DNA from: Sporosarcina thermotolerans
Lineage (GTDB): Bacteria > Bacillota > Bacilli > Bacillales_A > Planococcaceae
Direction: 5' to 3'
NCBI RefSeq assembly: GCF_030067815.1
Contig: NZ_CP125968.1
Location: 1,914,001-1,978,000 of the forward strand
Length of the DNA: 64,000 bases
The first letter of the stretch is position 1, and each line of letters begins with the position of its first letter. Below are positions 48,302-52,170 of this stretch, piece by piece. Made by a program: the position numbers and the translations under genes. The notes below the pieces were generated by a model. The model searched no databases. It had not been told where the DNA came from and saw only the letters and a program-made list of their open reading frames with translations.

Positions 48302-49393
48302 TTGAGAGTTTTTTGGAAGATAGCTTTATTACTGTTTATACTTCTCGCAGTTTTCTATTTCTTGGACAGTCGGGTCAAAGAAAATGAACCACTTGAATCA
48401 CCAGTAAAACACGGAACGGCAATTCCCGTACCCGATAAGGAATTTGATGAACAACAGATTTCTGGTCCTGAAAGACCCAAATCAGGACTTTCGACATTTG
48501 TCGGGAAGAATACTATTGACTTGATTGAAGCATTTGGAGAACCAGACAGGATTGAACCTTCCTCCTATGGTTACGAATGGTGGATATACACGGATGGATA
48601 CTCTTTCATGGCAGGTGTGAACGACGATGAAAAAGTGAACCAAATATTCAGTGCAGATCAATCAGTGGAATTGAAACCATTTTTTGTCGGGCAAGATATA
48701 AATGAAATTTATAGATTTTCAATTATAGAAACCGAAGTGAATGTTGTGTTAGGAGAAAATGTATATACATTTACATTAAACAGTCAAGATTTAAAAGATA
48801 AAATCCTATTGAAGTTTGAAGGTCTTTTTGCACAAATTTATGTAGATGGAGAAGAAGAAATAATTGAAGGTGTACGATTTATCGACCCTAAGACATTAGT
48901 CGTCCACCAACCGTATGATATGGAATATATGGGTGAGTTGATGGTGGCTCGGCATCCATCTTCGAGAGCCCAGATGGAAGTGGATCGTTCCATGGAGCGA
49001 CAAATTTTTGAATTGACGAATTTTTATCGTGAACACCACGGACTTGAGCCTTTGGAAAATAATTATTGGTTAACAACTCTTGCCCAAAATCATAGCAAAG
49101 ACATGGCTATCGGAAATTACTTTTCACATGAGTCTCCTTCAGGTGGAAACCTATCAGAACGGTTGAAAAACTCCGGTATTGAACATAAAAAGGCGGGGGA
49201 GAATATTGCCTCCAATTACGTAGACGCTATAGAAGCGGTACATGGTTGGCTGAATTCCCCCGCACATCGCAGTGTCTTATTGGATCCCGATGCAACGGAT
49301 ATCGGTACTGGTGCATATGGAAAATTTTATACACAAGTATTAATTAAATCCGATCCAAAGAAAAAAACTGATTCAGGATTAATGCAAAGATGA
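48302..49393 (+). CDS. ylbC: CAP-domain secreted protein YlbC
   Basis: 363 residues. N-terminal signal/anchor helix (WKIALLLFILLAVFYFL), a CAP-associated domain (about 65-205, FVGKNTIDLIEAFGEPDRIE) and a C-terminal CAP/SCP domain (about 235-350) with the conserved HSKDMAIGNYFSHESPSG and AGENIASNY motifs. Start at TTG 48302 after AAAGGGGCGAG. Orthologue of YlbC; extracellular, function unknown in Bacillus. Convergent with the aspartokinase gene, only one base between the stops. Confidence 0.92.
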   Translation: MRVFWKIALLLFILLAVFYFLDSRVKENEPLESPVKHGTAIPVPDKEFDEQQISGPERPKSGLSTFVGKNTIDLIEAFGEPDRIEPSSYGYEWWIYTDGYSFMAGVNDDEKVNQIFSADQSVELKPFFVGQDINEIYRFSIIETEVNVVLGENVYTFTLNSQDLKDKILLKFEGLFAQIYVDGEEEIIEGVRFIDPKTLVVHQPYDMEYMGELMVARHPSSRAQMEVDRSMERQIFELTNFYREHHGLEPLENNYWLTTLAQNHSKDMAIGNYFSHESPSGGNLSERLKNSGIEHKKAGENIASNYVDAIEAVHGWLNSPAHRSVLLDPDATDIGTGAYGKFYTQVLIKSDPKKKTDSGLMQR

Positions 49394-49394
49394 A

Positions 49395-50126
49395 TTATGG
49401 ATTGACCCAAGTACCATTCTCTTTAGAAGTGATACCTCTTACATACAGGGGTATCGCTTTTTTCATTGCATAAATTGCAGCTCGTTTTTGAATAACGGGG
49501 CGGTCTGTTTCAAGTAGAGGTAGCAGTTGAAGGATGTTAAGATTATCTAACTTCCTGGAATCATTGTGATCTTTGGGGTCGCTGGACATGATGCCTGGAA
49601 CGTCTTTGAAAAACTCAACATGTGAGACTCTTAGAGCAGCACCAACAGCGATGGCAGTCAAATCACTTCCACCTCTTCCAATGGTCATTACCTGACCGAA
49701 TTCGTTTATCCCTTGAAAACCGGGAATAATGACGCAACCAGTTTCTGTTAATGCATCTTTTATCATTGTTGGATCAACATCACTTATTGTTCCATCCCCG
49801 AAATCTCCAGATGTCCAAATACCCGCTTGTATGCCATGTAAAATCCTATTCGGGGTACCTGCCTGTTGTAGTTCCGCAGATAGGATGGCCGCAGCGATAA
49901 GCTCCCCACATGAAGCGGCTAAATCACTTGCAGCTTTCGCAGAGCTAAAAGCATCGGTTAGATGTAATAGACTATCTGTGGAATATGGATCAATCCCTCT
50001 TCCGATGGCCGAAACGACCACTACAACATTTTGATATCTCTCCAGAGCGGCTTGGATGTGTTCGATGCATAATTTTCTTGTTTGTTGGTCTTTCATAGCC
50101 ACTCCGCCAAATTTTTGAACTATCAT
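49395..50126 (-). CDS. aspartokinase catalytic domain without ACT regulatory domains
   Basis: 243 residues, only the amino-acid kinase domain. N-terminal MIVQKFGGVAM corresponds to the VQKFGGTS of aspartokinases; TIGRGGSDLTAIAVGAAL, FFKDVPGIMSSDPKD and the C-terminal AAIYAMKKAIPLYVRG follow the family. Housekeeping aspartokinases have about 400 residues with two ACT domains for lysine/threonine feedback; here these are wholly absent, and the stop follows the kinase fold directly. Divergently transcribed from a MurE-type ligase across 115 bases. Predicted to make aspartyl phosphate without feedback control, feeding diaminopimelate/dipicolinate synthesis; this role is inference. Confidence 0.8.
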   Translation of the reverse strand: MIVQKFGGVAMKDQQTRKLCIEHIQAALERYQNVVVVVSAIGRGIDPYSTDSLLHLTDAFSSAKAASDLAASCGELIAAAILSAELQQAGTPNRILHGIQAGIWTSGDFGDGTISDVDPTMIKDALTETGCVIIPGFQGINEFGQVMTIGRGGSDLTAIAVGAALRVSHVEFFKDVPGIMSSDPKDHNDSRKLDNLNILQLLPLLETDRPVIQKRAAIYAMKKAIPLYVRGITSKENGTWVNP

Positions 50127-50168
50127 TCAAGCTCCCAACTTTCTTCGTGTCGTTCGTTTCATTTTCTT

Positions 50169-50196
50169 CATACGATAAAGTATGGTTCGCTCTCAA
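50169..50196 (-). promoter_or_regulatory. possible sporulation promoter of the aspartokinase gene
   Basis: Minus strand reads GAATATA, 12 bases, CATACTTTA. The -10 fits the CATAnnnT pattern of SigE/SigK promoters, the -35 fits SigE in six of seven positions, and the spacer is about two bases short. The inverted core CATAC-N6-GTATG also gives a CATACGATA -10 on the plus strand for the MurE gene, where no matching -35 is seen. Confidence 0.35.
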
Positions 50197-50241
50197 TATA
50201 TTCGGTATTCGTGAAAATTGTTCGGGAAGGGGAGAGGGCTT

Positions 50242-51662
50242 TTGTTACTGTCGGAGATCTTGAAAGATTGGCCCTGCACGGTTTCTGGAAGTATCGGTAT
50301 GTCAGTACGTGGCATAACCGAGCGCTCGGGGAATGTGAGAGAGGGTTATATTTTTGTTGCAAGGAAAGGTGCCAAGGATGATGGGTTATGTCATCTACAG
50401 GAAGCAATAGAAAGTGGTGCGATTGCAATTGTTGTTGATCGCAATACAACTATAAATATAAAAATACCTGATAATATTACAATTATTGCCGTACCGGATG
50501 GAAGAAAGTTCATCTCATATGTAAGCTCAAAACTTGCAGGTGATCCATCAGAATCACTGACAATCATTGCTGTAACTGGCACGAATGGCAAGACAACTGT
50601 TACGCATTTTATCGGTCAATTATTAAATATGTGTGGGAAACAAGCTGCAGTTATCGGTACGACAGGCATCTTTTCGAATGGAAGAAAAATTAGTATGGAA
50701 GTTCCTGAGATGACAACATTACCAGCTGAATTCCTCCATCCCTTATTAAAAGGATGCCTTCATGCGGGAATGGAATATGTAGTCATGGAAGCCTCTTCTT
50801 TGGGACTTTCCACATCAAGACTCGATCATTGCATAATCGACATTGGTGTATTTTTAAACATCGGTGTTGACCATTACGAGGAACATGGCAGTAAGCAGTC
50901 CTATCTTAGTGCAAAAAAGAAGTTGGCTTCAATAGCGAAAGAATTGGTTGTGAATGCAGATGACGAACAATGCATGGCCCTTGTTCATAATTCCAAGCGA
51001 CCAACAATCTATTTTAGTGAAACGATGATCACTGATGTAAAGGCTACGGATGGACTCTACTTCACTGCTATACCTGGTAGACATAATAGGATGAACGCAC
51101 TTGCCGCCGTTACAACTTTAAGTTCTCTTGGTTTTGATAGGATGGAATTATTATCACTTTGCCAACAGCTTCAATTGCCGGAGGGGCGTTTGCAAAGAAT
51201 TGAAGAATCAGGTGTAACGGTTTATATTGACTATGCCCATACACCTGATGCACTCCATAATGTACTATCCTCTTTGAGGAAAGAATGCACTGGCGGACTA
51301 ATCACTGTATTTGGTTGCGGGGGTGACAGGGATCATGGGAAGCGTCCGATGATGGGAGAAGTAGCGGCGGCCTTCTCGACACAAGTAATTATTACTTCCG
51401 ATAATCCAAGAAATGAAGATCCACTTAGAATAATTTATGAGATATTAATGGGGATAGATGACATGTCGCCTAATATAATTGTTGAACCTGATCGGAAAAC
51501 CGCCATTGAGAGAGCAGTATTTGAAGCAAAAGATGGAGATGTTGTATTGATAGCTGGTAAGGGGCATGAAAAAACGCAGCAGGTCGGTCAAATGTTTTTC
51601 CGTTCTCTGATTCTCGGATTGCAAAAGAAGCATTGCAGAATAAAAAATTCGAGATTAATTGA
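50242..51662 (+). CDS. second MurE-type ligase (UDP-MurNAc-tripeptide synthetase), one frameshift
   Basis: About 473 residues. ATP site VTGTNGKTTVTHF near residue 113, YAHTPDAL, GCGGDRDHGKRPMMG and SDNPRNEDP near 390, AGKGHEKTQ near 440. The DNPR tetrapeptide is the signature of MurE enzymes that add meso-diaminopimelate rather than lysine. Start at TTG 50242 seven bases after GGAG. Near the end one A is missing at 51590-51592; restored, it ends VFPFSDSRIAKEALQNKKFEIN at 51660-51662. As read, the frame runs falsely into ylbF. It lies outside any division-wall cluster and is paired with the ACT-less aspartokinase. Confidence 0.88.
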
Positions 51663-51726
51663 ACAGAAAACATGCAAAAACAGTATCATATTTGTTATGA
51701 TTAGTTGGAATGGAGGGGAATGCCCG

Positions 51727-52170
51727 ATGATGATGACAGATGAATGGATGTCAATCATTGAGAAAGCGGAGACGCTCTCCGACATGATACTCTCTTCTGA
51801 AATTATTAATGAGTATAGAAGAGCGAATCATGCCGTATATTCCGACAAGTTGTTGGCAAAAGCGATTTACGATTTTACCAACATGAAAGAGCGTTACGAA
51901 GAAGTGCAACGTTTTGGTAGATACCATCCTGATTATAAGACAGTGATGAAAGATATACGTATCCAAAAAAGAAACTTGGATATGAATGAGCAGATAGCTG
52001 CTCTTAGAATTGCTGAGAACGATGTTCAGAACTTATTGAACGAGGTTAGTGCAATCATTGCAAAATCGGTGTCCGATTCGGTCAAGGCCCCTGCTGGTGA
52101 CGGATTCTTTACGGATTCATCATGCGGTGGAGGGTGTGGCTCCGGCGGCAGTTGTTCCTGTTCGGCTTAA
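51727..52170 (+). CDS. ylbF: YlbF/RicF, RNA-processing complex subunit
   Basis: 147 residues. RicF family: helical body with VQRFGRYHPDYKTVMKDI and a C-terminal cysteine tail CGGGCGSGGSCSCSA, which in B. subtilis helps bind a 4Fe-4S cluster in the RicA-RicF-RicT complex that works with RNase Y in mRNA maturation and affects sporulation and competence. Start at the first of three ATGs (51727) after TGGAGGGGA; the second or third is equally possible. The frame before this start belongs to the MurE gene. Confidence 0.93.
   Translation: MMMTDEWMSIIEKAETLSDMILSSEIINEYRRANHAVYSDKLLAKAIYDFTNMKERYEEVQRFGRYHPDYKTVMKDIRIQKRNLDMNEQIAALRIAENDVQNLLNEVSAIIAKSVSDSVKAPAGDGFFTDSSCGGGCGSGGSCSCSA

Follow-up and report, generated by a model that had tools for sequence, protein, structure and literature searches.

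A divergent aspartokinase-like gene and murE between ylbC and ylbF

The window, a stretch of 64,000 nucleotides from Sporosarcina thermotolerans, belongs to a genome assembled as a 3.66-Mb single contig that was scored 83% complete and 8.5% contaminated. Between homologues of ylbC and ylbF, it carries a gene encoding a short aspartokinase-like protein and, divergent from it, a murE gene (Table 1). An earlier note on this DNA had described an aspartokinase of 243 aa without ACT domains, separated by 115 bp from a DNPR-type MurE and located apart from any wall cluster. These points hold: the kinase frame ends just past the kinase domain, the ligase has the motifs DNPRNEDP and GKGHE, and murD of the dcw cluster lies about 26 kb further downstream. 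The start of murE is a TTG codon preceded by AAGGGGAG, and the gap of 115 bp is therefore right. A start at conserved FGKG codons was rejected, this stretch being the Shine-Dalgarno site.

Table 1. Features of the locus (window positions, except for the last row, which gives positions in the records named).
Feature	Position	Strand	Remarks
ylbC homologue, left border	48302..49393	+	name assigned in the earlier note
ACT-less aspartokinase-like protein (DapG-like kinase domain only, 243 aa)	49395..50126	-	frame, NCBIfam match, alignment, dN/dS
-35-like element towards murE, GTGTCGTTCG	50147..50156	+	commonest form in relatives: GTGACATT
-10-like element towards murE, CATACGATA	50169..50177	+	
-10-like element towards kinase, CATACTTTA	50176..50184	-	
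Shine-Dalgarno-like AAGGGGAG of murE	50227..50234	+	conserved; FGKG if translated
murE, ylb-locus type (DNPR, DAP-type)	50242..51662	+	end from frame of relatives; own frame breaks near 51.6 kb
DNPR diamino-acid motif codons	51400..51411	+	no variation in D, N or R among 32 aligned sequences
GKGHE motif of murE	51556..51570	+	
ylbF homologue, right border	51727..52170	+	name assigned in the earlier note
Small opposite-strand frames before ylbF	L244 1921-2502; L247 1975-2499; L258 4864-5325; L144 8092-8673; L253 1913-2488		

The same divergent arrangement was found in 73/73 loci fetched for the short kinase (ylbF in view in 71), and a MurE without kinase occupies the same slot in 13/13 loci from kinase-free genera and in genome G099. 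In several genera, a small opposite-strand open frame (154-194 codons) also recurs just ahead of ylbF, whether or not murE is present. One record titled Arthrobacter beigongshangensis REN13 (L170) holds a Sporosarcina-type locus, and its title therefore looks misnamed.

The claim that the MurE is complete fails for this assembly. Its murE is read as a 650-aa frame that leaves the frame of its relatives and runs on (about 51590-52170) into ylbF. This run-on is found in only this genome, one of the 71 loci with ylbF in view, and the 70 relatives lack the break; assignment to the MurE family thus rests on their intact copies. A programmed frameshift or a MurE-YlbF fusion was ruled out on the same count. 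Since the assembly is scored as given above and the second murE of this genome, linked to prfC (L001), is broken too, both breaks are likely to be assembly indels.

The intergenic stretch shows striking conservation across 30 loci of the Sporosarcina group. We defined a promoter-like box as CATANNNT followed by A or G, with G-N-C followed by A or G upstream; the search required this second element and left its position free. The box is present upstream of MurE in 82/86 loci and 11/12 genera, its two halves being 20 bases apart in 71 of the 82. A stricter box, with the spacing confined to a range, is found in 80/86 loci versus 1.2 in mononucleotide shuffles. The CATAnnnT-type -10 elements that the earlier note had seen in the shared region are conserved as well: CATANNNTA occurs within 130 bp of MurE in 71/86 loci (5.5 in shuffled sequences, maximum 15), and upstream of six neighbouring genes in 0-13 of 75-86 stretches. 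In the ten kinase-free loci with the box, it lies 23-33 bases ahead of MurE. On the kinase side, CATANNNTA was found in 42/73 loci. In the window, CATACGATA and CATACTTTA together form a palindrome, CATACGATAAAGTATG (50169-50184).

The sigma-K consensus is AC-N16/17-CATAnnnTA. The murE box may be a mother-cell promoter, which it resembles, and would fit this consensus better than that of sigma-E. As a calibration, CATANNNT was found upstream of spoIVA and of spoIID in 20/20 genomes each; this calibration is weak since shuffles of that length give 11-13/20. The -35 elements of these two genes (TCATA, GAATA, GCATGAAACG) are unlike GTGACATT of murE in the same genomes. The 5' leader of the kinase gene, CGAAGAAAGTTGGGA (window 50127-50160, minus strand), is itself nearly invariant in the 30 loci of the Sporosarcina group. 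Its conservation exceeds the needs of a ribosome site, and on the opposite strand the -35 region of murE lies next to it.

The short kinase and the two MurE enzymes

The best NCBIfam match of the short kinase is the DapG-type model NF006068, DapG being aspartokinase I of Bacillus. The match covers positions 3-246 of 405 and scores 230 bits versus a cut-off of 474; as it lies below the cut-offs of the aspartokinase models, the protein is classed as aspartokinase-like. Its nearest named relative is from Sporosarcina highlanderae (95% identity), and full-length DapG-type proteins of Robertmurraya, Neobacillus and Listeria share 38-40% identity with it. The ACT-less form (frames of 237-256 aa) is found in all 73 loci, from six genera, and is therefore not a truncation confined to one genome. 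Moreover, dN/dS is 0.03-0.10 in six close pairs: the short kinase is under strong purifying selection.

Besides lacking ACT domains and being divergent from murE, the short kinase differs from DapG at conserved residues. We compared 72 short forms with six full-length DapG, leaving out L068, whose kinase leaves the common frame at its end. Ser10 is replaced by Ala and Thr176 by Lys174 in 72/72 short forms, the original residues being present in 6/6 DapG, and His215 is replaced by Gln213 in 99% of the 72. Lys5, Ser39, Gly42-Arg43, Glu75, Arg151, Asp155 and the GRGGSD loop are kept. Since the Thr of TDV contacts the nucleotide, its replacement by Lys suggests that the ATP site may be remodelled. 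We take the short form to be a functional protein, probably an aspartokinase that lysine cannot inhibit; freedom from lysine feedback, proposed in the earlier note, is a reading of the missing ACT domains.

The ylb-locus MurE of the window scores 411 bits against TIGR01085 (cut-off 257) and 407.5 bits against the DAP-ligase model NF001126 (cut-off 373). It shares its domains, its nucleotide loop and the motifs DNPR and GKGHE with the DAP ligases, but it belongs to its own clade, lies far from dcw and is preceded by a sporulation-like promoter box. In six close pairs, its dN/dS is 0.09-0.21 and the enzyme is thus under purifying selection.

A search of the whole genome for the Mur-ligase family gave nine places. 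The earlier note had proposed looking for a second, Lys-type murE in the dcw region. As predicted, a second copy without DNPR exists; it has the motif LTTDDPRDEP and adjoins prfC (C1:1882690). The search detected no murE between the window copy and the murD of dcw, which is therefore without its own murE there. Three MurF-like ligases (G000:C1:2330923-2340615; L003, L004 and L005), far from the wall cluster, are grouped amid ATP-grasp-like proteins, as read by eye, and are possibly spore-coat or peptide-making enzymes.

In other genomes, 30/30 complete prfC-type copies have TDDPR, as does the broken copy of S. thermotolerans, and a prfC or M42-peptidase gene adjoins them in 29/30 genomes. The ylb-locus enzymes have DNPR in 80/86 cases and DN followed by A, S or C and R in 6/86; DNAR, DNSR or DNCR replaces DNPR in g13, g18 and g19 (L145-L147 and L149-L151). 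Entry 4bub, named a lysine ligase and presumably the Thermotoga maritima enzyme, has DDPR in our alignment, like the prfC-linked MurE and unlike the enzyme of the window. According to PMC3829189, the Asn and Arg of DNPR bind the second carboxylate of DAP, and the lysine-adding MurE of S. aureus has DNPA. This binding is why DNPR marks DAP enzymes, and the motifs thus fit DAP as the substrate of the ylb-locus MurE and lysine as that of the prfC-linked MurE.

A FastTree phylogeny of 73 MurE sequences with midpoint rooting separates the two enzymes. The ylb-locus copies form one clade (31/31, support 0.93; 0.97 with the copy of genome G020) and the prfC-linked copies another (30/30, support 0.89). 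The MurE of four Bacillaceae/Listeria genomes do not nest with the former; they group with the latter, at support 1.0 for a clade that also takes in two odd enzymes. No prfC-type MurE was found among the matches in the g2 and g4 genomes read. These genomes carry instead a long-branched MurE (279-295 bits; L156 5418-6986, L157 5711-7264). We take g4 to be Psychrobacillus, whose walls contain L-Orn, and the long-branched enzyme is a candidate ornithine-adding MurE.

Distribution in Planococcaceae and the tie to sporulation genes

We sampled 200 genomes of Planococcaceae, per-genus counts being tallied by hand from tables. The profile of the ylb-locus MurE matched 151 of them at E <= 1.8e-179; 45 of the remaining 49 were listed at E >= 4.8e-122 and four fell under the reporting limit. 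SpoIVA was detected in 151/200 genomes, including 150 of the 151 carriers of this MurE. SpoIID was detected in 161/200 at E <= 1e-20: 152 matches are strong (E <= 8.9e-58; 150 above the curated cut-off), and the nine weak ones (1.6e-32 to 8e-23) all come from g7. The strong set consists of the 151 genomes found with the MurE profile and of G020. The ylb-locus MurE is therefore present in 152/152 genomes with a strong SpoIID versus 0/48 others, which span seven genera, the copy of G020 being counted by inspection of its slot and the 48 being assessed by profile.

Two genomes looked like exceptions. G020 was ruled out as a sporing genome without MurE: its copy is too diverged for the profile threshold, and its ylb slot holds a diverged kinase-MurE pair, both open frames. 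The MurE frame has 439 codons; it has DNPR and a normal P-loop, reads GKGNE rather than GKGHE, and is preceded by a CATATAGTA element. G099, a genome in 160 contigs, has MurE and no SpoIVA; its SpoIID (3.8e-90) rules it out as a non-sporing carrier.

The ylb slots inspected were those of the 73 genomes with kinase and of G020, those of G099 and 13 others among the 78 lacking a close kinase, and those of ten non-carriers out of 48. No murE lies between ylbC and ylbF in 8/8 inspected non-carriers outside g2. The other two, both from g2, hold eroded remnants: in G001, 125 codons of MurE are left and the kinase is missing, and G038 retains pieces of both genes. G020 is their relative bearing spore genes, and the fourth genome of g2, G054, lies outside the ten inspected. 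Shared descent inflates the co-occurrence of MurE with sporulation genes, and the losses are its independent evidence. With this reservation, the proposed co-occurrence is borne out in the sampled family: the MurE locus tracks genes for SpoIVA and SpoIID, which do not prove spore formation, and is missing from relatives without them. Bhargavaea is not known to sporulate. In g3 (Bhargavaea/Edaphobacillus, L078-L085), 8/8 genomes have spoIVA and spoIID, and these strains perhaps have a hidden sporulation ability.

The kinase does not share this constancy. A close short kinase is encoded by 73/200 genomes and a diverged one by G020. Because 78 carriers of sporulation genes have MurE without a close kinase (14 such loci were inspected), the ligase is the core of the locus and the kinase a frequent, dispensable accessory. 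The view of the pair as one module thus stands for MurE, constant in carriers, but not for the kinase, missing from about half of them. The MurE of kinase-free genera form one clade (10/10, support 1.0), whose placement within kinase-bearing ones is weak (support 0.43). Since the outermost copies (G020 and Psychrobacillus) carry the kinase, it is probably ancestral and was lost once.

Among 398 genomes of the class, Planococcaceae included, none outside the family exceeded 452 bits (E 2.1e-135) with the ylb-locus MurE, carriers within the family being found at E 2.2e-171 or better, and the matches listed in an order-level search were all from Planococcaceae. A scan for the kinase in one genome of each of 84,980 species gave 186 stretches encoding relatives. 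Among the best 80 of the 186, short kinases were found in Sporosarcina, Filibacter, Paenisporosarcina, Bhargavaea, Edaphobacillus, Rummeliibacillus, Viridibacillus and Psychrobacillus, followed by full-length DapG of Robertmurraya, Neobacillus and Listeria. Of the candidate short relatives outside the family, L234 and L236-L240 were rejected as full-length DapG; L241, which lies at a contig end, stays a candidate.

A proposed DAP ligase for the spore cortex

The main idea of the earlier note, a dedicated DAP-type MurE tied to sporulation, withstands the genomic checks (second MurE, co-occurrence and -10 elements). We consider it highly probable that this is a sporulation locus, providing a mother-cell DAP MurE for the spore cortex, with the prfC-linked MurE serving growth and a feedback-free kinase as an accessory. 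From gene content, the co-occurrence with sporulation genes across the sampled genomes of the family, the conserved promoter-like boxes, the DAP-type motif and purifying selection, we infer the time and cell of expression, the substrate of each ligase, the kinase activity and the chemistry of the cortex. In growing cells, the prfC-linked DDPR-type MurE would, judging by its motif, be the enzyme that places L-lysine in the wall peptide. During sporulation, a sigma-K- or sigma-E-type factor would switch on the ylb-locus MurE in the mother cell; this enzyme would add meso-DAP to UDP-MurNAc-dipeptide and thereby supply DAP-containing precursors for the cortex. In genomes that have it, the divergent ACT-less aspartokinase would be turned on from the facing promoter and would drive aspartate into the DAP pathway without inhibition by lysine. 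Since, in the sampled genomes of the family, this MurE accompanies sporulation genes and is absent or eroded in those that have lost them, it probably gives the cortex a chemistry unlike that of the growing wall.

The second MurE could also be a wall enzyme of general stress or of the stationary phase that co-occurs with sporulation genes by shared ancestry only, as all carriers were found in one family and presence is inherited. However, the 48/48 profile-negative genomes without a strong spoIID, the decaying remnants in 2/10 inspected non-carriers and the box like mother-cell promoters make this very improbable. Another view gives the pair a role mainly in dipicolinate synthesis, MurE being incidental. 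Aspartokinase feeds dipicolinate, and dapG belongs to the dipicolinate operon in B. subtilis. This view is very improbable: it is the kinase, and not MurE, that varies between carriers, and the usual synthase subunit DpaA (TIGR02853) was detected in 0/200 genomes of the family at E 1e-30, a threshold that matched the B. subtilis control and that a diverged subunit could escape. As 152 of these genomes have a strong SpoIID, Planococcaceae may make dipicolinate another way.

For the kinase-like protein, the more serious alternative is that it is no longer an aspartokinase and acts as a regulator, or as a kinase with another substrate or nucleotide. The substitutions of Ser10, Thr176 (both 72/72) and His215 (99%) speak for it; we find it doubtful, given the retained Lys5, Ser39, Glu75, Arg151, Asp155 and GRGGSD loop, the strong purifying selection and a place beside a DAP ligase that fits DAP supply. 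That it is a mere truncated pseudogene, as the missing ACT half and the missed model cut-offs might suggest, is extremely unlikely, since the frames of 73 loci from six genera end at nearly the same point and dN/dS is so low in six pairs.

The proposed DAP ligase would have a counterpart in Lysinibacillus (Bacillus) sphaericus. This species has an L-Lys wall during growth and DAP in the cortex, and a DAP-adding ligase activity reportedly appears in its sporulating cells, an observation attributed to Linnett and Tipper in the 1970s. The likeness that we propose lies in these three traits, but that system is known only as an activity. We think it rather likely that the family has a cell-type switch of peptidoglycan chemistry. 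The wall MurE, adding Lys (Orn in Psychrobacillus), would be joined by an anciently diverged MurE that would be made solely in the mother cell and would build a DAP cortex. Its ancestral divergent partner would be a remodelled aspartokinase, free of feedback and later lost in one branch, and the ylb-locus murE would be the gene behind the sporulation DAP ligase of L. sphaericus. No paper naming this gene was found in the open-access literature, where most old papers are missing, and passages of PMC4015370, PMC9781867 and PMC3533761 hold nothing on it. A sporulation-related meso-DAP peptidase of B. sphaericus is named in the reference list of PMC10653849, in line with DAP in the cortex of this species.

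The ylb-locus MurE provides a candidate gene for an activity known only as a biochemical observation of the 1970s, so that a single deletion could show if DAP, and not lysine, is what the cortex requires. It could also serve as a genomic marker for those members of the family that sporulate. Furthermore, the putative natural one-domain aspartokinase may find use where lysine feedback is unwanted. If the proposed role is true, the third residue of the wall peptide can differ between cell types of one bacterium.
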